In this document: positions 5,629 through 18,780 of the stretch, one piece after another
Layout: the number at the start of each line of letters is the position of its first letter
How positions within the stretch are numbered: the stretch's first letter is position 1
Source of the DNA: a virus
Length of the DNA: 27,601 bases
Strand: one strand, 5' to 3'
IMG/VR virus record: IMGVR_UViG_3300008448_007198
Span: 1-27,601 of that record
Program-made: the position numbers and the translations under genes
Notes under the pieces: generated by a model
What the model saw: the letters and a program-made list of their open reading frames with translations, nothing else
The model's database searches: none
Told to the model about the DNA's origin: nothing

Positions 5629-5641
5629 ATTGGAGATTCCA

Positions 5642-6028
5642 ATGTCGACAGATATCTATGCTAAGTTTATTTCAGAACAAATCAATAAAGAAAGAGTTCG
5701 CGGACTGAGAAACAGTTCTCTTCACGAAGAACTAGAACTTACTTTAGAAGATTATGTCGACATGCTTCATACATATATTGAAAATCTAGAATCTCACTTT
5801 GAAACAGAAGACCTACAGCAGATCCAAGAACTTTCAGTGGATAAATTAAGAGCATATAATGCAAAGATCCGTGAAAAAGGCGGCGCTGAAAAGCTAGGAA
5901 GAGAAAAAGGTCAAAAGCTGGCTGCTGACAAAGCTCACGCTGCAATGGGACAACAGGTTGCTCCTTCCACTAAGAAAAAGCCACTTGGTGTAGTTCCGGC
6001 AAGCGGAAGCTGGGTAACAAAAAAATAA
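5642..6028 (+). CDS. Helical acidic protein with basic Ala/Lys-rich tail (128 aa)
   Basis: TGGAGA (5631-5636) supports the ATG at 5642. The first 80 residues are amphipathic and helical (ELELTLEDYVDMLHTYIENL), probably a coiled coil. The tail (about 82-128) is rich in Lys, Ala and Gly and ends SWVTKK. No known domain. It lies between a late promoter box and a strong terminator, so it may form its own late transcription unit. Composition resembles small head-associated or assembly-scaffold proteins, but that is inference. Confidence 0.72.
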   Translation: MSTDIYAKFISEQINKERVRGLRNSSLHEELELTLEDYVDMLHTYIENLESHFETEDLQQIQELSVDKLRAYNAKIREKGGAEKLGREKGQKLAADKAHAAMGQQVAPSTKKKPLGVVPASGSWVTKK

Positions 6029-6934: not shown

Positions 6935-7543
6935 ATGAAGAAGATTAATCGATTTAGAAATTTTGTAGGCTCGGGAACTCTCACGATCTTTGATATCGAT
7001 GAGACTCTTTTTCATACGTATGCCAAAGTTACTGTTGTAAAAGATGGTAAGACTGTTCGGTCGCTAGACAATCAAGAGTTCAATACCTACAAGCGTAAGA
7101 AGGGTGAAACTTACGATTTTGGAGAATTTGCAAATGCTGAAGTGTTTCGCAATTCATCTAAACCAATCACTCGAATGGTTGCTAAAACTAAAGCTATTTT
7201 TGCTAACTCGAAAAAGAATCCTCACAGCCGAGTGATTATGTGTACTGCTCGATCTGACTTTGATAATAAAGATATTTTTCTTCAGACGTTCCGTGATCAT
7301 GGTTTGCCTATTGACAATATTCATGTGGAGCGCGCCGGGAACCTCAAGATTGACTCTTCCGCTGAAGCCAAGAAGATTATCTTTCGTAAATATATAAATA
7401 CACAGAACTATATAAAACTTAGGTTGTTTGATGATGCTCCTAGCAATCTTCATGCATTCCTTTCTTTACAAAAAGAATATCCAAATATTAAGTTCGAAGC
7501 CTATTTTGTAAATCCTGATGGATCGGTAAAGACAGTACGATGA
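6935..7543 (+). CDS. HAD-superfamily phosphatase (202 aa)
   Basis: Haloacid dehalogenase motifs are present in order: motif I DIDET (D20 nucleophile, D22 acid), motif II TAR (T104), a motif III lysine around 146-147, and motif IV FDDAPSN (D166, D167). Length and motif spacing suit a small phosphatase such as the 3'-phosphatase part of T4 polynucleotide kinase, but no kinase P-loop is present. The substrate could be a nucleotide or a nucleic-acid 3' end. The promoter at 6900-6928 starts on the ATG and there is no Shine-Dalgarno, so a leaderless mRNA is likely. The stop overlaps the next start (ATGA). Confidence 0.85.
   Translation: MKKINRFRNFVGSGTLTIFDIDETLFHTYAKVTVVKDGKTVRSLDNQEFNTYKRKKGETYDFGEFANAEVFRNSSKPITRMVAKTKAIFANSKKNPHSRVIMCTARSDFDNKDIFLQTFRDHGLPIDNIHVERAGNLKIDSSAEAKKIIFRKYINTQNYIKLRLFDDAPSNLHAFLSLQKEYPNIKFEAYFVNPDGSVKTVR
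7393..7400 (+). promoter_or_regulatory. Possible late promoter box inside the HAD gene
   Basis: An exact TATAAATA about 140 bases before the gene at 7540. It could start late transcription of the head block, with initiation near 7406. It lies within coding DNA, so a chance match is possible. Confidence 0.35.
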
Positions 7544-8535
7544 AATCTTTTAAGAGTTATATTAGAGAAGCTCGCATGACCACCGTGAGTGAGATTACGG
7601 CTGCTATTGCTGGCCATAAGAAGGCTGGTGAGATTCTAAATCCGGTGTATCAAGATCTTGTTGACCAAGCCAAGCGCGTGATGAGAAATGATACGTATTC
7701 ATCAAAGCCTGATGAATTGCTTGATCTAGTGCGTGCTGACCGTGATGATCCAGACCTGACTGAATTGTATTATACTAGTTTTGATGGGTTTGTGAGCCAT
7801 GGTAAAATTGAAAAACTAGTGAATAAACTTGAAAAAAAGAATAAGCCACAATATAAGCATATGATTAAGAGTGTTCGTGATTATCTTAAAATCTGGAAAC
7901 CTATTGGCGAAGATCTTAAGTATCTTAAAGGCAAAGTTGTTAAGGTAACACAAAAGCGTGCTGAAGCTAAGGCTGTTGCAACTACTGCGCTACAAAAGAA
8001 GTTCAGTGATTCATCGACGCTTATTAAGATCTTAGAGAGCCATCTCAATGAGTATAAGAAGATGGCTGAAACACGAGCTCGTGAGTTTGTTAAGAAGCGC
8101 CTTGATTATTTTAAAAGTCACGAGTGGAATCTTGACAAAGCTGCTCCTAATCCTTCGAGCTTTTATGGTGGAACAGATTATAAGATGAAGAAAGCAGCTC
8201 GTGATGCGCTGGAAGCCTTCACAAAATCAAAGAATACAAATCGTCGGCATGGTGAGCCAGATATTCGTGAGCCCGATCAAGCCAAGATTGAACATTACGT
8301 TAAGTTAAATGTTCAGGGTGCAGAAGATGCGTATCGTAGTTTCATGCAAAAGATGATCGAAAAGATTGGTAAGCCAGTAGTCAATGCTAATATGGCCGGT
8401 AACATTTGGACTAATGCTGTTCTTACGGTAACTACTAATGACGGTGAGGAGCAAATTTGGAATACAAAGATGATTCTGAATTTCTCTAAGTATCAAACCA
8501 TGTTTAATCAATTCCCTTCTCGTAGGAAAAAATAA
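7540..8535 (+). CDS. Putative internal head protein with capsid-targeting-like start (331 aa)
   Basis: The N-terminus MKSFKSYIREAR closely resembles the capsid-targeting peptide of T4 internal proteins (MKTYQEFIAEA), which gp21 protease cuts after I-x-E. The matching cut here would be after E10 (I8-R9-E10). The remaining protein is basic and largely helical, with a long charged middle (about 110-200) and a C-terminal beta-rich part with TNDGEEQIWNTKM. No known enzymatic domain. It starts through ATGA overlap with the HAD gene and leads the head block. Packaging with DNA is inference from the N-terminal motif. Confidence 0.75.
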   Translation: MKSFKSYIREARMTTVSEITAAIAGHKKAGEILNPVYQDLVDQAKRVMRNDTYSSKPDELLDLVRADRDDPDLTELYYTSFDGFVSHGKIEKLVNKLEKKNKPQYKHMIKSVRDYLKIWKPIGEDLKYLKGKVVKVTQKRAEAKAVATTALQKKFSDSSTLIKILESHLNEYKKMAETRAREFVKKRLDYFKSHEWNLDKAAPNPSSFYGGTDYKMKKAARDALEAFTKSKNTNRRHGEPDIREPDQAKIEHYVKLNVQGAEDAYRSFMQKMIEKIGKPVVNANMAGNIWTNAVLTVTTNDGEEQIWNTKMILNFSKYQTMFNQFPSRRKK

Positions 8536-9704
8536 TGACTGCATTTAAAAGTTTTCTTGCTGAAGAAACTAGCGAAGAAAAACTTAAACATCTTGAACAT
8601 GCTGAAGATCATGTAATTAATGCTGGTGCAGAAGGTTTCTCGCACGCATATCATAATTTAAAAGATGTACATGATAAGCTTTCTGGTAAAGAAAATGCTA
8701 CAAAAGTAACTATGAAGTATGATGGTTCGCCTTCTGTTGTATTTGGGCGACATCCACAAACTGGTAAGTTCTTTGTTGCTTCGAAGTCTGCTTTCAATAA
8801 GAATCCTAAGATCAACTATACTGAAGAAGACATTCAGCGTAATCATGGTCATGCTCCTGGCCTAGTTCAAAAGCTCAAAGCAGCTCTTCATCATTTGCCT
8901 AAGGTGACTCCAAAGAAGGGAGTTTTCCAGGGTGATATCATGCATACACCGAATGATGTACATCAGACTGGTGCAAAGGTACATTTCACTCCAAACACCA
9001 TTACATATTCAGCTAATAAAAATTCACCTCATGGAAAAGCTGCAGTTCGTTCTAAAATTGGTGTAGCAGTTCATACTAAATATAATGGCAAAAATCTTGA
9101 AGATATGAAAGCCGAATATGCTCCTAATTTAGATGAATTTGGTGCTCATAAAGATGTGCATTTAATTTCTACAGAACATGATACTTCTGGTATTAATTAT
9201 AAACCACAACATCAAGCTAAGTTTATTAAGCATATGGCAGCAGCCGCAAAATTGCATTCAAAGACAAATCCTGAAACTCATGCTGCAATTGAGAATCATC
9301 GTATTCCTTTAAAGACTTATATCAACCACACCGTTCGTACTGGTACAAAGCCTAATACGAATGAGTTTATAGCTCATCTTGCGAAGTCTCATCAGAGAAA
9401 GATAGACGCTGTAAAAACAGATAAAACAAAAGCTTCAAAAGCAAGTGCTATGGAACGTGATGTATCTCATGTTCAGAATAATCGTAAACACTTTGAACGC
9501 GTTCTTCAAATGCATACTCATTTACAAAAAGCTAAAGATGTATTAGCTAACACACTCTCGAGCCACGCTGAGTTTGATCATAGTATTAGTGGTAAGAAAT
9601 CTAAGCCTGAAGGATTTGTAGTGGTAAGACACAATCGTCCTACTAAGATTGTTGATCGTGCTGAGTTCTCGGCTGCTAACTTCAATAAGGACAAAAATCT
9701 GTGA
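8535..9704 (+). CDS. Ligase-family nucleotidyltransferase with capsid-targeting-like start (389 aa)
   Basis: The N-terminus MTAFKSFLAEET fits the head-protease site L-x-E after E10. The body carries nucleotidyltransferase motifs of the DNA/RNA ligase superfamily: KYDG (61-64; K61 would take the AMP), FQGD (131-134; motif III) and PEGFVV (358-363; motif IV), then TKIVD with K371 (motif V). About 225 residues, His- and Lys-rich, separate motifs III and IV, far more than in ordinary ligases, so the fold has an insertion. I recall similar phage proteins labelled DUF6267 (unchecked). The start overlaps the previous stop (TAATG) and the end overlaps the HxGH gene (GTGA). Ligase, capping or transfer activity are all possible. 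Confidence 0.78.
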   Translation: MTAFKSFLAEETSEEKLKHLEHAEDHVINAGAEGFSHAYHNLKDVHDKLSGKENATKVTMKYDGSPSVVFGRHPQTGKFFVASKSAFNKNPKINYTEEDIQRNHGHAPGLVQKLKAALHHLPKVTPKKGVFQGDIMHTPNDVHQTGAKVHFTPNTITYSANKNSPHGKAAVRSKIGVAVHTKYNGKNLEDMKAEYAPNLDEFGAHKDVHLISTEHDTSGINYKPQHQAKFIKHMAAAAKLHSKTNPETHAAIENHRIPLKTYINHTVRTGTKPNTNEFIAHLAKSHQRKIDAVKTDKTKASKASAMERDVSHVQNNRKHFERVLQMHTHLQKAKDVLANTLSSHAEFDHSISGKKSKPEGFVVVRHNRPTKIVDRAEFSAANFNKDKNL

Positions 9705-10312
9705 AGGCAATCCATATCACTCAAGGAAGATTTAACCCTGTACATGCTGGCCACGAGATGGTGGTGAAGCATGTAATGGATGCTGCGAAGAAAGAAGGAG
9801 CCGATCATAAGATTCTGACTACTGGATCTCATGATGCCAAGAAGAATCCCCTGACTCCGGAACAGAAGGTGAAGCATCTTTCTCGTGCTGTCAAAGGTGC
9901 GAAGGTTGAAGCTATGTCTAAAGAACATCCTACGCTTCTGCACCAAATGACAAAGCTACACAAGGCTGGTTACACTCACGTAACAATGCATGTTGGTTCT
10001 GACCGCGTCAATGAATTTCATAAGCTCCTTCATCAATATAATGGTAAGGATCTGAAACACGGTCACTATAACTTTAAAAGTATTAAAGTCAAGTCAGTAG
10101 GCGGTGAACGTAAAGAAGGTGGTGGTGGAATCGAATCTGCTTCTGGTACTGCAATGCGTAAACACGCTACTGCTGGAGATAAAGAATCATTCCATAAGAT
10201 GGCTCCGTCTGGAATGAGTAAATCTCATAAGGATGAACTATATCATGATGTTCGTAAGGGTATGGGAATTCACGAGTCCTTTATTGCCAGATTTAAGAAC
10301 TGGATTAACTAA
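9701..10312 (+). CDS. HxGH-type nucleotidylyltransferase (203 aa)
   Basis: The start is GTG, overlapping the ligase-family stop (GTGA). GRFNPVHAGH (9-18) is the HxGH nucleotide-binding signature of the cytidylyl/adenylyltransferase family (NMN adenylyltransferase, phosphopantetheine adenylyltransferase), and SGTAMRK near residue 150 matches the second SxTxxR-type signature. The length suits a single catalytic domain. The C-terminus, GIHESFIARFKNWIN, contains an I-x-E site 11 residues from the end, so it too could be trimmed by the head protease. Coupling to the KxDG gene suggests a joint pathway such as NAD, RNA-end or cofactor chemistry; substrates cannot be read from the sequence. Confidence 0.82.
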   Translation: MKAIHITQGRFNPVHAGHEMVVKHVMDAAKKEGADHKILTTGSHDAKKNPLTPEQKVKHLSRAVKGAKVEAMSKEHPTLLHQMTKLHKAGYTHVTMHVGSDRVNEFHKLLHQYNGKDLKHGHYNFKSIKVKSVGGERKEGGGGIESASGTAMRKHATAGDKESFHKMAPSGMSKSHKDELYHDVRKGMGIHESFIARFKNWIN

Positions 10313-11648: not shown

Positions 11649-13172
11649 ATGGAAGATAAGAAGAAACCGGTACCAGAAAAGAATATTAAGAAGCCTACGG
11701 GCAAGTCTGCAACTGGTAAACCACTAGATGGCATTGACATCAATCCTCAGCTAGATGACAAGAGCCGTACAAACGAGGACTTTGCCGTCCTAACCGCGTC
11801 CCTTCAGGAACGCAAGGCTCTTACGCTTGCTCAACGCCAACAAAGAGGCCGACAACTCAAGCGTATTCAACCAAAGCTTCAGAGAGCCAAAGAGATCTCA
11901 CAGGGCCGGTTAGCCGGCACGGAAAAATTACAGAGGCGCGCCGAAGCCAAGGCGCGAGCATTACTGAAATCAAGAATTTCTGCTCGAAAGGATATTCCCT
12001 ATTCTAAGCTTACAACATCTGAAAAGATTCAGGTAGATACCGCAGTCGCCAAGAAGACAAAGCTGATTAAGCGTATCGCTGCGCGTCTTCTACCAAAGCT
12101 GAGAAAGGCAGAGTTTGAAAGACTGAAATCTTACCACAGTGGCGAACCAATGAAGAGTCTCCACACGGTGGTTGCCGCTGAAGATTTCTCTGGTCTTTTC
12201 AATGATCTCAATGCCAAGTCAACACTTGAACTTGTAGACATCATTGAGAACGCGATTACCAAGTTCGAAAAAGAAGGTAATCCGATTAGCATTACTCTAC
12301 GTAGAATGCTAAACTCGACGGTTGGTACAGATCCAATCATAGAGACCCTGATCAAAAAAGCTGAAAAGACTGGCATACCGTTCTCGACTCTCAAGGAAGT
12401 GTTCGAGCGCGGTCTTTCGTTGTATGTAAATGAATCGACACAAACACCCGAACAAATTGCATTCAATCGAGTCAATAGCTACATTGCCAAGGGCAGAGCT
12501 TGGACTCTTGATGCGGATCTTCGCGAAGAGAAGATTGTTAACGAAGAACTTGATATTGCGTTTAAAGAATTGCTTGAAAAAAATAATATGTGCAGCAAAG
12601 AGATTGTGGATCGTAAGCCTGCAGAATCAAATGTAAAAAAGCGCCAGCAGGAAGTTCAGAAAAAGATTATTGACGAAGGCGAGATGAAGCCATATGTAAA
12701 GCCACACTATGGGTCAAGCGATCCAAAGAAACAAACAGCATGGGTTGCTTCGAATAAGTGGGGCAAGAAGAAATATTTTGGAATGGACTTCAAGAAGTCG
12801 GCCGAGAAGCATGCTAAGATTAATGAAGACTCTCCATCTCAAAGAGAGATTGGCACAAACACACTAGTTAAGAAGTATAAAAAAGAAACACCGGGTCAAG
12901 AGAAATCAGATCTTAACGAAACATTCAACATGGCTTGGACTGCTGGCATCGGTGTGACTCTTTCAGCTGAAGAATGCGGTATCAAGATGAAGCCGGCATT
13001 TGAACTTCATCCTGATGTAGTTGATGCGATGGAGGAAGTTCGTTCTTCGGATGTTGAAGGCGTAATTGTTCGCACTGCTGATGGTAAAACTATAGTGCGC
13101 AGACAAAAAAGAAACAAAAAGATCATTGGATCCGGAAATGTAAACGATGGGAAGCCAGATGATACGCTTTAA
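11649..13172 (+). CDS. Basic helical virion-associated protein (507 aa)
   Basis: AAGGGA (11636-11641) supports the ATG at 11649. Residues about 45-160 are extremely rich in Lys, Arg, Ala and Gln (RQQRGRQLKRIQPKL, RRAEAKARALLKSR), a long helical region I recall from many marine phage structural-block proteins. A later basic stretch has KPHYGSSDPKKQTAW and KKKYFGMDF. KKIIDEGEMK contains an I-x-E/G site compatible with head-protease cutting. It could bind DNA inside the head. No enzymatic motif. Its last 14 bases overlap the next gene. Confidence 0.75.
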   Translation: MEDKKKPVPEKNIKKPTGKSATGKPLDGIDINPQLDDKSRTNEDFAVLTASLQERKALTLAQRQQRGRQLKRIQPKLQRAKEISQGRLAGTEKLQRRAEAKARALLKSRISARKDIPYSKLTTSEKIQVDTAVAKKTKLIKRIAARLLPKLRKAEFERLKSYHSGEPMKSLHTVVAAEDFSGLFNDLNAKSTLELVDIIENAITKFEKEGNPISITLRRMLNSTVGTDPIIETLIKKAEKTGIPFSTLKEVFERGLSLYVNESTQTPEQIAFNRVNSYIAKGRAWTLDADLREEKIVNEELDIAFKELLEKNNMCSKEIVDRKPAESNVKKRQQEVQKKIIDEGEMKPYVKPHYGSSDPKKQTAWVASNKWGKKKYFGMDFKKSAEKHAKINEDSPSQREIGTNTLVKKYKKETPGQEKSDLNETFNMAWTAGIGVTLSAEECGIKMKPAFELHPDVVDAMEEVRSSDVEGVIVRTADGKTIVRRQKRNKKIIGSGNVNDGKPDDTL

Positions 13173-13455
13173 GGAATTCATTTCAGAAGCCCGCGGCGAA
13201 GATTCAAAGGGGCATTTTATTGCAACAGAGAAGGGTGCTGGAATGACAGCAAAGGGCGTCAAAGCCTTTCGTGCCAAAAATCCAGGATCAAAGCTTCAAA
13301 CTGCTGTGACCGGTAAAGTAAAGCCTGGATCAAAGGATGCTAAGAGACGTAAGTCTTTTTGTGCACGCATGAGTGGCATGCCGGGTCCTATGAAAGATGA
13401 GAAGGGTAGACCAACACGCAAAGCAATGTCATTGCGCAGGTGGAGATGTAGATAA
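13159..13455 (+). CDS. Small basic protein with capsid-targeting-like start (98 aa)
   Basis: I chose the ATG at 13159, giving MIRFKEFISEARG; an in-frame ATG at 13147 adds only four residues. The motif has an I-x-E/A cut site after E10, like T4 internal proteins. The rest (ATEKGAGMTAKGVKAFRAK, then GKVKPGSKDAKRRKSFCAR) is a very basic phage family that I recall as DUF6321 (unchecked), ending in RRWRCR. A small, basic, head-targeted protein may be injected with the DNA or help condense it. It overlaps its upstream neighbour by 14 bases and the Dps start by one. Confidence 0.82.
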   Translation: MIRFKEFISEARGEDSKGHFIATEKGAGMTAKGVKAFRAKNPGSKLQTAVTGKVKPGSKDAKRRKSFCARMSGMPGPMKDEKGRPTRKAMSLRRWRCR

Positions 13456-13889
13456 TGGAAGAGATTACTAACCCTTTGAAGATCGCATTTGCAGACACCT
13501 ATGCATTTTATGTGAAGGCACAGAACTATCACTGGAATGTTGAAGGACCGCTGTTTGCGATGTATCATGACTTCTTTGGTAAGATCTACGAAGAGGTAGG
13601 TGGAGCAATTGATACGTTCGCCGAAGAAATTCGTGCACAGAATGCATACGCACCAGCAGCATTTGGTAGATTCTCTGAACTTACAAATATTCAAGATGAA
13701 GTTTTGATCATTAAGCCAGAGCAAATGGTTGCAATACTGTTCTCGGATAATGCAACGGTGCTTGCTTCTCTTCAGCGTGCACGAGATGCGGCTGACAAGT
13801 ATGGTGAAAATGGACTTGTAAACTTCATTGAAGAAAGACTTGATCGCCACAAGAAACATGCATGGATGTTAAGGGCTTCAATGAAATGA
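13455..13889 (+). CDS. dps: Dps-like ferritin (144 aa)
   Basis: This is a Dps-family ferritin-like protein. Dps forms 12-subunit shells that oxidise and store iron and protect DNA. The ferroxidase residues are present with exact family spacing: H26 (in NYHWNVEGP), H38, D53 and E57 (in DTFAEEIRAQ). They correspond to the Listeria Dps sites 31, 43, 58 and 62. It lacks the N-terminal capsid motif of its neighbours and a long basic tail, so DNA binding is uncertain. It sits between two genes with head-targeting motifs, and its stop overlaps the next start (ATGA). Phage Dps homologues are known but uncommon. Confidence 0.9.
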   Translation: MEEITNPLKIAFADTYAFYVKAQNYHWNVEGPLFAMYHDFFGKIYEEVGGAIDTFAEEIRAQNAYAPAAFGRFSELTNIQDEVLIIKPEQMVAILFSDNATVLASLQRARDAADKYGENGLVNFIEERLDRHKKHAWMLRASMK

Positions 13890-14476
13890 AATATAGATCC
13901 TTAGAGTCTAAGATCCGAGATATCTTTGAAGCTAATCATATTGCTATGGGTGCTATTGAATCTGATCAGAACGATCAGATCGCTGTTGGTTCGTATACAA
14001 CAAAAGCATTCGAAGTATCTCCTCAAGCTCAGAAGCTTTATGCAGATCTTCCAAAAGATACAAATGCAGATGACGCTCAAACCGCAGCAGAGAACTTAGA
14101 TAAATTATTTGATATTGTTAAGGATGTGCACCATACCGGCAAAGCGACCGCGGCTCATATTGCTCGGGCTACAATGCATGGTGAGATCGTAATGAGACAT
14201 GCTGCTGGGATGAAGCTTGAAAAAGAACATGAGGCAATTGTAAAGGCTGCTATGGATTCGTTACATAGAGTGGCAGGCGAACATAAAAAAGAACTCAATC
14301 CAGATGATGATTACCATCCGGCAGATGACAAAAGATTTCACAACCCGCCAAAGGGATACACACCAGATCCTATTCCTGGGCCCCAAGGTGACAAAGATAT
14401 AGATAACCTAAAAAGATACCTTATTAAAAGGTCTCGTGCGGCAGAACGCAAAATTAAAATCATAGATGCAGACTAA
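13886..14476 (+). CDS. Putative head-associated helical protein (196 aa)
   Basis: The start at 13886 overlaps the Dps stop (ATGA); an AAGGG lies upstream at 13871-13875. An in-frame start at 13862 would sit inside Dps. The N-terminus MKYRSLESKIRDIFEANH contains I-F-E/A, a head-protease-like site after E15. The middle is helical with several His pairs (VKDVHHTGKATAAHIARATMHGEIVMRHAAG), and the tail is proline- and lysine-rich. No family recognised with confidence. A role in the prohead core or as an internal protein is inference from the motif and neighbours. Confidence 0.75.
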   Translation: MKYRSLESKIRDIFEANHIAMGAIESDQNDQIAVGSYTTKAFEVSPQAQKLYADLPKDTNADDAQTAAENLDKLFDIVKDVHHTGKATAAHIARATMHGEIVMRHAAGMKLEKEHEAIVKAAMDSLHRVAGEHKKELNPDDDYHPADDKRFHNPPKGYTPDPIPGPQGDKDIDNLKRYLIKRSRAAERKIKIIDAD

Positions 14477-14488
14477 AGGACTACCACA

Positions 14489-16696
14489 ATGTTTACAAAG
14501 AAACTCGAAGATCAATTTTCTGCCGACCTTCTGAACACCGTTCGTGGTGTTCTAGGCGAGGCAAAACACGACAAAGAATGTGAATGCGAAAAGTGTGAAA
14601 AAGAAGAAGAAGATGATGAAGACGAAGATGAAGAGAATGAAAAAGAAGATAAAAAGAAAGAGATGAAGGAAGGCAAAACCGGTCTCTGGGCAAATATCCA
14701 TGCAAAGCGCAAGAGAATCAAAGCCGGTTCTGGCGAGCGCATGCGTAAGCCTGGATCGAAGGGCGCTCCAACCGATGCTGACTTCAAGGCTGCTAGCGAA
14801 AGCGTAGAGATTGAAGAAGCTGAAAACAAGACTGGTCTGCCTAAGTCGACCGCTGAAAAGAACAAGCAACACATTGAAATTACATCTTTACTTGGTCACA
14901 AGCGTCGTGTTCCTGTTCATCCAACAAATACTTATAAGGCATTGAATCGCTATCGTAACGATCCTTCGACAAAGAGCGCTCGTATTGTTTCAGAAGAAAC
15001 CGAGCTTGAAGAAGGTAAGATGAAGGATCTAGTCACCAAGCACATGGATGCTGGTCACGACTATGAGACTGCTCTGAAGAAAGCTAAGAAACATTTAGAT
15101 GTTCCTTTCGATGGTCCTTATAGAAAGCCTGGAACTCGTAAAGATGAATATGGTAATGTTGTAAAGAACGTTGCTAAACATCTTGCTAGAAAAGCAATGG
15201 CTAAGGAAGAAATAGACCCTGATCTTGAAGATGAATTGAAAGCTACACGCCAGACAAAGAAGTCTGTTGCTGATGCTAAGAAAAAGTATGGCATGAAAGA
15301 AGATTCAGAACACACCAATTGCGGAACTCCGGAATGCTGCGGACAGTGTGATACAGCCGAGCAGATCGATGAGCTTTCGAAGAAGACTCTTGGATCCTAT
15401 GTAAAGAAAGCTAAGAAAGAATTAAGCTCTTCAGACTATCATGTTGGCCGGGCTGTTGGCGCTCGTGAAACAGGGGGCAAATCTAATTTTTCTCCAGAGC
15501 TTGAACGCAAGCTAGCTAACCGTGGTAAGAAACGCTATCATGGCATTGATAAAGCTGTTGATAAAATGATGACTAAGGAAGAAGCCGAGCAGATCGATGA
15601 GCTTTCAAAGAAGACTCTTAAGAATTATCTCAACAAGAGAAGCGTACAAACAACTCAGAGCAAATTGGTTGGAGCCAATCTTCGCCACGCAATGTCACAC
15701 GACGTTGGACTAAGAGGTACTAAGCCATTGATATCACCTGAGACAACCAAAGAGTTGGAAAAGGTTAGCAAACAAGCTCTTGATTTTTCAACTAAAAAGG
15801 GAAAGTCAATTGAGTTAGCAAGAAAAAAAATAGGAGTTGCTTCTGATTATAGAAAGAAACTTAAAGTTCCTGCAAATGAAGAAGTAGAGCAGATCGATGA
15901 GCTCTCGAAGGGAACGATGGGTCGTTATATTAATAAAGCTGCCGATCGCATGAGCACTCAAGGTGTTACTGCTGGTTTAAAAATTGCTGCTGATGAAAAG
16001 TCGAGCAAGAACTTTAAGAACATTGCTAAGCGCCAAAAGGGAGTTGCTACAGCAGTATCTAAGTTAACCAAGGAAGAGCAAGACTTTATCGATTCATTGA
16101 ATGACGTTGATCAGATCGACGAATTGTCAGGTGCAACACTCGGTTCTTACGTTGTTAAATCAAGAAAAGATGAAACAGATCGCCGCGAAGCTGGAATTAA
16201 GACGCGTGACGAGATTCGTAAGCAAACTGGTCTAAGAGTCGGCACTCCTATTGATCGCAAGCTATATAGCCCAACGGCTAGCCGTGGTGCAGGACAGAAG
16301 ATGGCAGTAAAGAAGCTTACTGGTCAAGCACGAGTGAATGCTAAGGAAGAAGTAGAGCTTGAAGAAGGTCGTGGTCGTCCTCCGAAAGAAGGTTCGGCAG
16401 CTTGGAAGGCTCGTCAAAATCAAGCTAATGATGATATGACAGCTCTTGGCGTACAACTTCGTAAAGCTAAATCAATGAACAAAAAAGTTCGTTTCATGAA
16501 TGGCAAAGAACACGAAGTTCATCCTAATCATGTAGATCGATTTGAAGATCATATGGCTGCTCGTAAGACTTCACAAGATAAGGGTGAATTTCAAAAGCAT
16601 GCTCATAAATCACATGAAGACTTCGTGAAGGCTGTTACCGCACCAGTTCCTAAAGTATCAAAAGATACTGGTGAGATTGTAAAATATAGGCATTGA
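14489..16696 (+). CDS. Large repeat protein with many head-protease-like sites (735 aa)
   Basis: AAAGGA (14475-14480) supports the start. The N-terminus has VLGEAK (cut-like site after E24), then CECEKCEKEE and a long Glu/Asp/Lys tract (about 32-60). Four repeats of QIDELS followed by T-x-G/N-x-Y-x-x-K begin at residues 292, 368, 468 and 542, each an I-D-E/L site. Further I-E-E/A and L-E-E/G sites occur near residues 108, 174 and 623. A cysteine-rich patch, CGTPECCGQC, precedes the first repeat. Such QIDELSKKT repeats occur in marine phage proteins, from memory. The whole resembles a scaffold-like or polyprotein precursor of internal head peptides; this is inference. Confidence 0.8.
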   Translation: MFTKKLEDQFSADLLNTVRGVLGEAKHDKECECEKCEKEEEDDEDEDEENEKEDKKKEMKEGKTGLWANIHAKRKRIKAGSGERMRKPGSKGAPTDADFKAASESVEIEEAENKTGLPKSTAEKNKQHIEITSLLGHKRRVPVHPTNTYKALNRYRNDPSTKSARIVSEETELEEGKMKDLVTKHMDAGHDYETALKKAKKHLDVPFDGPYRKPGTRKDEYGNVVKNVAKHLARKAMAKEEIDPDLEDELKATRQTKKSVADAKKKYGMKEDSEHTNCGTPECCGQCDTAEQIDELSKKTLGSYVKKAKKELSSSDYHVGRAVGARETGGKSNFSPELERKLANRGKKRYHGIDKAVDKMMTKEEAEQIDELSKKTLKNYLNKRSVQTTQSKLVGANLRHAMSHDVGLRGTKPLISPETTKELEKVSKQALDFSTKKGKSIELARKKIGVASDYRKKLKVPANEEVEQIDELSKGTMGRYINKAADRMSTQGVTAGLKIAADEKSSKNFKNIAKRQKGVATAVSKLTKEEQDFIDSLNDVDQIDELSGATLGSYVVKSRKDETDRREAGIKTRDEIRKQTGLRVGTPIDRKLYSPTASRGAGQKMAVKKLTGQARVNAKEEVELEEGRGRPPKEGSAAWKARQNQANDDMTALGVQLRKAKSMNKKVRFMNGKEHEVHPNHVDRFEDHMAARKTSQDKGEFQKHAHKSHEDFVKAVTAPVPKVSKDTGEIVKYRH
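15356..16160 (+). repeat. Four coding repeats of the QIDELSKKTLGSY type
   Basis: Copies start at 15356, 15584, 15884 and about 16106, spaced 74 to 100 codons. The first two share 36 bases (15356-15391 and 15584-15619) with a single silent difference. The later copies differ more at the DNA level but keep the peptide core. Confidence 0.85.
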
Positions 16697-17975: not shown

Positions 17976-18364
17976 TGATTGATAAACTTGATGAAACAAA
18001 TTTTGTTATATATGCAGCGAAACATTATGATAACCCACAGTGTTTTGATACATTAGAATTTTATGAAGATTTAGCTAGATTTAAATATATCAAAAGATTA
18101 TTCAATAGATATGAAGAAGCTGGTGAATTAAAAGAAAGATTAGTACTTAATCATCTTACTATTCTTTATAATGTGTTTGGTGTTGCTGCTACTAGATTAC
18201 TATTTTTTAAACTCGATGGCTATTATCATATGTTGAAGCCGTTTGTTATTTTGCTTGGACAAATGCCAGATAGTATTCATGGAATTGGAATAGAAAACAA
18301 AACTATACGAAGTTCAGATATATCAATGGACTTAAATATCGTAGAAATACTGAGGAAGATTTAA
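17975..18364 (+). CDS. Conserved phage protein of unknown function (129 aa)
   Basis: The blocks NFVIYAAKHYDNPQC, FYEDLARFKYIKRLFNRYEE and ELKERLVLNHLTILYNVFG mark a compact family that I recall from T4-like and marine phages, where it has no known role. The protein is mostly helical and basic, with hydrophobic helices but no clear membrane anchor. It begins and ends in TAATG overlaps with its neighbours, so it is coupled into the structural operon. The conserved KxxxRLxxRYE helix suggests nucleic-acid or protein binding, which is inference. Confidence 0.78.
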   Translation: MIDKLDETNFVIYAAKHYDNPQCFDTLEFYEDLARFKYIKRLFNRYEEAGELKERLVLNHLTILYNVFGVAATRLLFFKLDGYYHMLKPFVILLGQMPDSIHGIGIENKTIRSSDISMDLNIVEILRKI

Positions 18365-18780
18365 TGCAAAAGGCGCTTGGTAAACACATTGGTACTGTAA
18401 ACGGTTATCATATTCATGATCTCGGTGCTAATACTCCACACAAAGACAAGAGGTTCTTAGCTTATCACAATGAGTATGCATTTATTAGTCATACAGCTCC
18501 TACTAAAACTGAAGTAGCTAAAAAATCTAAAGAACACAAAAAGAGTGAACCTGCTCCAAAGCGCACCGAACATGATGATTGGCGCGATAGTATGAAACAC
18601 CGTGTTCAGTCTGGCGAAATTCGTCGAGCAGTTATGAGTAAAAGACTTGGTGAAGAAGTTGCTGTGAATTCCGCAGGAGCTGGTAATGTTGCCGGACTTG
18701 GTGTAGGTCCACAGGGCGAACCGGGTGTGAAGAAAAAGAAAAAGAACATCATGACTTTCAGTAGATTTGCGAGAAAATAA
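18364..18780 (+). CDS. Phage protein with Gly-rich GPQGEPG tail (138 aa)
   Basis: The first 55 residues are alpha/beta-like (MQKALGKHIGTVNGYHIHD). A basic linker of Lys, Glu and Pro follows (about 55-75), then RLGEEVAVNSAGAGNVAG and GVGPQGEPGVKKKKK. The GNVAGLGVGPQGEPGV-type tail recurs in proteins of marine phage structural blocks, from memory. RLGEE is an L-x-E site and the last residues (MTFSRFARK) recall the F-x-x-F of the head-targeting motif. A late or virion role is probable; its function is unknown. Confidence 0.75.
   Translation: MQKALGKHIGTVNGYHIHDLGANTPHKDKRFLAYHNEYAFISHTAPTKTEVAKKSKEHKKSEPAPKRTEHDDWRDSMKHRVQSGEIRRAVMSKRLGEEVAVNSAGAGNVAGLGVGPQGEPGVKKKKKNIMTFSRFARK

Follow-up and report, generated by a model that had tools for sequence, protein, structure and literature searches.

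A probable modular polyprotein with candidate prohead-protease sites at its module joints in a marine T4-like phage

A 735-aa protein (P0001) of a marine T4-like virus that infects bacteria is probably a polyprotein, cut in the prohead by gp21 at [IL]-x-E joints between its modules. We infer this cleavage from the motif, its context and the co-occurrence of the protease; that P0001 is present in the prohead is likewise deduced, and the fate of the pieces is proposed by analogy only. The source DNA is a 27.6-kb fragment (IMG/VR record IMGVR_UViG_3300008448_007198, positions 1 to 27,601), the whole of which is referred to here as the window. Pfam and PHROGs recognise genes for DUF6267, cytidylyltransferase-like, DUF6321, Dps/ferritin-like and gp61-like primase proteins in the window, and ThyX-, NrdA- and NrdB-like ORFs, identified by reading alone, lie farther downstream. 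The gene of P0001 sits between the cytidylyltransferase region and gp61, outside a gp20-gp23 operon, and the gp21 gene is absent from this fragment, which is not the whole genome.

The ORF starts with ATG, and stops are abundant on the opposite strand. Its translation contains exactly eight [IL]-x-E tripeptides, all of which coincide with module boundaries. The gene and the sites are as follows, the arrow marking the predicted cut.

14489..16696, + strand: modular polyprotein gene, 735 aa (ORF, translation, module architecture)
14552..14560, + strand: site LGE↓A, residues 22-24, predicted cut after 24
14810..14818, + strand: site IEE↓A, residues 108-110, predicted cut after 110
15005..15013, + strand: site LEE↓G, residues 173-175, predicted cut after 175
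15365..15373, + strand: site IDE↓L, residues 293-295, predicted cut after 295
15593..15601, + strand: site IDE↓L, residues 369-371, predicted cut after 371
15893..15901, + strand: site IDE↓L, residues 469-471, predicted cut after 471
16115..16123, + strand: site IDE↓L, residues 543-545, predicted cut after 545
16358..16366, + strand: site LEE↓G, residues 624-626, predicted cut after 626

The sequence-only reading from which this analysis started had reported at least eight such sites, among them four QIDE repeats 74-100 residues apart; the repeats are indeed spaced by 76, 100 and 74 residues, and the count of eight is correct, although the number itself is at chance (8 versus 6.9 in a composition shuffle, p=0.37). 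The narrower pattern [IL][DE]E is found seven times against 1.2 expected, a value that 0 of 5000 shuffles reached, while no such excess exists among the window's 20 other main proteins (8 versus 5.7). Stray sites within the modules are weakly depleted (1 versus 4.5 expected outside acidic linkers, P=0.047), a signal too weak to be retained as added evidence for cutting. The P1' residue of T4 cleavage sites is mostly Ala, and Leu is atypical there; at the joints of P0001, Leu is prominent at P1' (the four IDE↓L sites), a point against cutting, with Ala and Gly at the others. The shortness of the L/I-x-E motif is another such point. Searches of Pfam and NCBIfam with P0001 returned no curated family, no peptidase and no effector domain, and comparison with PHROG and Pfam gave no prohead match and no homology to gp67 or gp68.

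Cutting at every site would divide P0001 into nine pieces of 24, 86, 65, 120, 76, 100, 74, 81 and 109 aa, six of which have a pI of at least 9.

14489..14560, + strand: putative N-terminal targeting propeptide, residues 1-24, MFTKKLEDQFSADLLNTVRGVLGE↓A, ending in the LGE↓A site
14561..14818, + strand: predicted piece 2, residues 25-110, acidic tail followed by the LWANIHAKRKRIKAGSGERMRKPGSKGAPT module (phrog_16028)
14819..15013, + strand: predicted piece 3, residues 111-175, beginning AENKTGLPKSTAEK, pI 9.5
15014..15373, + strand: predicted piece 4, residues 176-295, beginning GKMKDLVTKHMDAGHDYETALKKAKKH, pI 7.1
15374..15601, + strand: predicted piece 5, repeat module 1, residues 296-371, beginning LSKKTLGSYVKKA
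15602..15901, + strand: predicted piece 6, repeat module 2, residues 372-471, beginning LSKKTLKNYLNKR
15902..16123, + strand: predicted piece 7, repeat module 3, residues 472-545, beginning LSKGTMGRYINKAADRM, two helices predicted
16124..16366, + strand: predicted piece 8, repeat module 4, residues 546-626, beginning LSGATLGSYVVKSRKD
16367..16693, + strand: predicted piece 9, residues 627-735, beginning GRGRPPKEGSAAW, with a folded C-terminal module at 637-720

The leader is kept in nine relatives as FSADLL[ND]TV[RK][GS][IV]LGE↓A, and its LGE↓A matches the L-G-E↓[AG] of the major-capsid N-termini in the relatives G001, G002 and G007. The phrog_16028 module LWANIHAKRKRIKAGSGERMRKPGSKGAPT of piece 2 (window 14675-14797, residues 63-103) has matches among the ORFs of T7-like cyano-, pelagi- and roseophages as well, phages which, to our knowledge, are not expected to have a gp21-type protease.

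Each of the four QIDE↓L sites opens a related helical module of about 75-100 aa that ends at the next joint, with the consensus [LI]SKxTLx[SR]YxxKA ... KRxxGIxxAxxKLxKEE. The sequence-only reading had described a T-x-G/N-x-Y-x-x-K helix behind each repeat and a series of related peptides as the outcome of cutting. The helix motif stands, but its 'G/N' position is variable and [LI]-S-K-x-T-[LM]-x-[SRN]-Y-x-x-K-[AS] describes it better; mutual relationship holds for four of the nine pieces and not for the other five, which comprise the 24-residue leader, an acidic/basic piece and unrelated modules.

The repeat module was modelled as two helices (pLDDT 65), with the joint in a low-confidence stretch before helix 1. 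This helix is predicted to start two residues past the joint, and because it begins right after it, the IDE↓L joint may double as a helix cap. The full-length model of P0001 is mostly disordered (mean pLDDT 44), and the C-terminal module 637-720 is the sole confidently predicted domain (block pLDDT about 76-89). A fold search of the repeat module against the PDB gave nothing below E=1.9, and PDB sequences searched with a profile gave no hit below E=0.5; the full-length model had no useful match in the PDB. Two uncharacterised phage proteins that matched the full-length model in BFVD (E about 1e-5) were set aside because that model is poor.

A scan of viral contigs yielded 80 loci and, together with named phages (P-TIM68, protein AIR93496; Cr30, protein AGS80949; S-SKS1, P-RSM6 and BUCT-ZZ01), 88 module-bearing ORFs, 63 of them non-redundant, that encode proteins of up to 1431 aa. 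A comparison of repeat number among related phages, which the sequence-only reading had proposed, reveals that module number and order vary and that close relatives of the window gene are separated by whole modules gained or lost at joints. Over the 63 relatives, [IL]xE is found 416 times against 279 (SD 14) in shuffles, [IL][DEN]E 249 times against 54 expected and [IL]DE 181 times against 18 expected, with no excess for [IL]xD (176 versus 209) or [IL]xQ (115 versus 116). The patterns [IL]xK and E.[IL] are enriched too, which we attribute to the repeated sequence itself. Sites are also spaced more evenly in the relatives than at random (CV 0.73 versus 0.96).

A first count of conservation upstream of the joint was biased, as NEEVEQID had been among the fetching patterns, and the test was therefore repeated with a profile of the residues downstream of the joint only. 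This profile retrieved 29 diverged copies (<70% identity) with E at P1 in 90% and I or L at P3 in 93%, the two best-kept upstream positions, above P2, P4 and P5. The motif is in register in 26 of the 29; in the other three, by reading, it is shifted 2-4 residues further upstream. Where unrelated modules stand behind new upstream sequence, [ILVM]xE lies no more than two residues from the joint at 217 of 353 places, compared with 38 (SD 6) at random positions, the query pieces themselves being delimited by [IL]xE and the places not fully independent. From the downstream-only profile and the unrelated-module test together, it follows that the motif belongs to the joint and not to one module. Among the modules of the relatives, a HicA toxin domain (PF07927) lies directly behind an I/L-x-E joint in L056:5453-9745 (residues 75-125, E=2e-11), and a second one in L067:3403-5877 (residues 313-364, E=2e-9), both above the cut-off. 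A putatively EF-hand-like module (KGNQHKIDKNKNNKIDAQDFKILR) follows several joints in L035:9509-11206, L043:9869-10927 and L058:4759-5469.

T4 gp21 cleaves after L/I-X-E and splits gp22, gp67 and gp68 into several fragments (PMC9026906; PMC9958956). Among the module-bearing IMG/VR records tested, all eight that exceed 100 kb have a gp21 gene (Peptidase_S77, PF03420), as do the ten named phage records tested, five of which bear the module and two of which (S-SZBM1 and S-CREM2) lack it; a gp21-type prohead protease was thus found in 13 of the 13 near-complete module-bearing records searched. In at least eight loci (L018, L020, L034, L060, G001, G002, G006 and BUCT-ZZ01), module-bearing ORFs are located within the head block itself, between gp67 and gp21 in the order gp20-gp67-[here]-gp21-gp22-gp23, and G007 has a weaker module copy in the same gp67-gp21 interval. 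Fusions of the module with a gp67-like N-terminus occur in L018, L060 and BUCT-ZZ01, the gp67 assignment being based on position, sequence appearance and a single weak PHROG hit, to phrog_1064 'prohead', which the BUCT-ZZ01 fusion alone gives (E=0.003). In G001, a window-type gene some 5 kb past DUF6267 coexists with a head-block polyprotein. Distant relatives of the C-terminal module of P0001 also lie between gp67 and gp21 (E 3e-5 to 4e-4, second profile round). The major capsid proteins of module-bearing genomes carry L-[GS]-E↓[AG] at the presumed end of the propeptide, which was placed by analogy with T4 gp23. The motif at joints in any context, the variation of module number and order at those joints, the co-occurrence of gp21 and the occurrence in prohead-core genes all lend good support to the proposal, made from the sequence alone, that P0001 is a polyprotein with head-protease sites.

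The genes upstream of P0001 in the window include the following.

8535..9704, + strand: DUF6267 neighbour with short N-terminal FLAE↓E (PF19782, E=9e-102; N-terminus read)
9701..10312, + strand: cytidylyltransferase-like neighbour, with relatives found in cyanophage virions (PMC10665884 Table 3; PMC9146016)
13147..13455, + strand: DUF6321 neighbour, its N-terminal RFKEFISE↓A similar to a capsid-targeting propeptide (PF19846, E=4e-21; N-terminus read)
13862..14476, + strand: neighbour immediately 5' of the 735-aa gene, N-terminus ..ESKIRDIFE↓A

DUF6267 is likewise present in seven of eight relatives' records. Short N-termini are seen in four neighbours, namely YIRE↓A (7540-8535), FLAE↓E (8535-9704), FISE↓A (13147-13455) and IFE↓A (13862-14476), and these endings suggest an island of head-targeted proteins. 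Elsewhere in the window, a small ORF at 5630-6028 with QIQE↓LSVDKLRAYNAK may, judged by eye, contain a diverged repeat module, and the product of 18364-18780 has a C-terminal tail LGE↓EVAVNSAGAGNVAGLGVGPQGEPGVKKKKKN, to which tails in L003, L005 and L008 are closely similar.

Indirect evidence comes from the virion proteomics of two phages, S-SZBM1 and S-CREM2, in both of which the window-type module is absent. In S-SZBM1, SSZBM1_139 (457 aa), encoded after the cytidylyltransferase gene, was detected in virions with four peptides (PMC9146016); it contains many I/L-x-E sites. In S-CREM2 virions, gp155 and gp160 were detected (PMC10665884 Table 3), and the genes of both lie downstream of the cytidylyltransferase. 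Two modules of gp160 are shared with the P-TIM68 polyprotein (80% and 66% identity), which bears the window-type module. Residues 17-70 of gp160 (L099:13843-14736) match phrog_696 'major head protein' and resemble the S-CREM2 major capsid protein at its mature N-terminus. A search of the open-access literature yielded no virion proteome of P-TIM68 or Cr30, nor of any other phage with exactly this module.

In the mechanism that we propose, the leader would direct P0001 into the assembling prohead core, and the gp21-type serine protease would cut after the E of the eight joints once the prohead is complete. This would yield the 24-residue leader together with eight small pieces of 7-14 kDa, most of them basic and four of them copies of a single helical-hairpin module. 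The basic pieces may then remain with the DNA and be injected; that at least some pieces accompany the DNA into the host, like T4 internal proteins, is less certain than the cutting, and by analogy we give it slightly less than even weight. The same reserve applies to the internal head peptides that the sequence-only reading had expected as products. Module number and order would differ between phages because the joints are interchangeable.

P0001 might instead be a prohead-core component destroyed by gp21, all pieces leaving the head with no later function and the repeats setting core size or binding valency. Such a fate would resemble that of T4 gp22, gp67 and gp68, which end up as small peptides that presumably leave the head (PMC9958956; PMC9026906), and it is in keeping with the fusion of the module to gp67-like proteins, its presence in the gp67-gp21 interval and the disorder of the full-length model. 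We nevertheless regard it as rather unlikely, given the detection of related or position-equivalent proteins in mature virions, the conservation of the pieces well past the joints, the toxin-like domains such as HicA in relatives, the basic character of most pieces, and the setting of the window gene, which is not the core operon but a region with cytidylyltransferase relatives carried in virions. A repeat protein that is never cut, in which I-D-E-L serves as a helix cap, hydrophobic staple or docking motif, would account for the predicted helix start two residues past the joint and for the conservation of the downstream L-S-K-x-T-L as well. The [IL]xE joint, however, also precedes unrelated modules without the LSKxTL helix, diverged copies keep P3 and P1 while P2, P4 and P5 vary more, insertions of 2-4 residues are tolerated ahead of the helix, and an excess of I/L-x-E without one of the D or Q variants fits the specificity of gp21; this explanation is therefore improbable.

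Still less probable is an anti-host effector of several domains that reaches the host intact or is cleaved there by a different protease. The multi-domain architecture and the toxin-like modules of relatives would suit it, as would the parallel to the polyvalent proteins that phage heads package (PMC5512222), but neither P0001 nor its relatives yielded a peptidase domain, and the joints fit the phage's own head protease, itself found together with the module. Finally, the raw [IL]xE count of P0001, equal to the shuffle expectation, would be compatible with meaningless sites in a Lys/Glu-rich protein, a view that the strong, context-independent conservation of the motif across dozens of proteins makes scarcely credible.

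Many genomes of marine T4-like phages encode long, fast-changing 'hypothetical proteins' of this type, which carry no functional annotation. Should these be head-protease polyproteins, a single rule, to cut after I/L-x-E with modules between, would explain their architecture and predict mature products overlooked by ordinary annotation and by tryptic-only proteomics; the phage would vary its injected or core proteins through module shuffling at protease sites. Marine T4-like phages could, as a tentative extension that we think rather doubtful, possess a general 'cassette' system of gp21-cleavable polyproteins, in which dozens of small, freely shuffled modules provide for the delivery of many small proteins into the host at a fixed ratio. 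The pool of such modules would, just as tentatively, include helical hairpins, EF-hand-like, HicA-like, Cys-rich and others. No earlier description of such a phage polyprotein was found in the open-access literature, to which the search was confined.

Several known systems share features with P0001. Polyvalent proteins of phages and plasmids (Iyer et al. 2017) resemble its family in combining several domains per packaged polypeptide in a mosaic with toxin-like modules. They have large conserved effector domains, and a peptidase, often embedded in the chain, is proposed to free their domains, whereas in P0001 none was found, the joints fit the head protease and the modules are much shorter. The ejection-protein propeptides of phiKZ and SPN3US, which gp175/gp245 cut several times, likewise have multiple prohead-protease sites in a single head protein (PMC10052503); there, however, the repeated cuts are made in a propeptide that precedes one mature domain and is discarded, and the motif is other than L/I-x-E. 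T4 IPI-IPIII and Alt have a short capsid-targeting N-terminal leader ending in L/I-x-E↓A and small basic products; a leader with such an ending and small basic products are predicted for P0001, and window neighbours similarly carry leaders of the FISE↓A type. One or two cuts in a T4 internal protein give one mature protein, compared with eight predicted cuts giving eight products and a leader in P0001, the leader of which is by eye unlike that of the T4 internal proteins.

The T4 core proteins gp22, gp67 and gp68 have L/I-x-E sites along the whole chain and an acidic segment, as does P0001, the relatives of which have the same prohead-core neighbourhood and include the module-gp67 fusions of L018, L060 and BUCT-ZZ01. 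By contrast with these proteins, P0001 is made of discrete modules that can be reused, has a single site at each joint and contains four copies of one module; it is long, with 735 aa and up to 1431 aa in relatives, and its gene is outside the gp20-gp23 operon in the window. Unlike those of gp67 and gp68, the gene of P0001 is not placed between portal gp20 and protease gp21, a position that the module does occupy in relatives. The principle would thus be that of the T4 core proteins, and what is new is the modular, repeat-expanded and shuffled architecture over several loci per genome.
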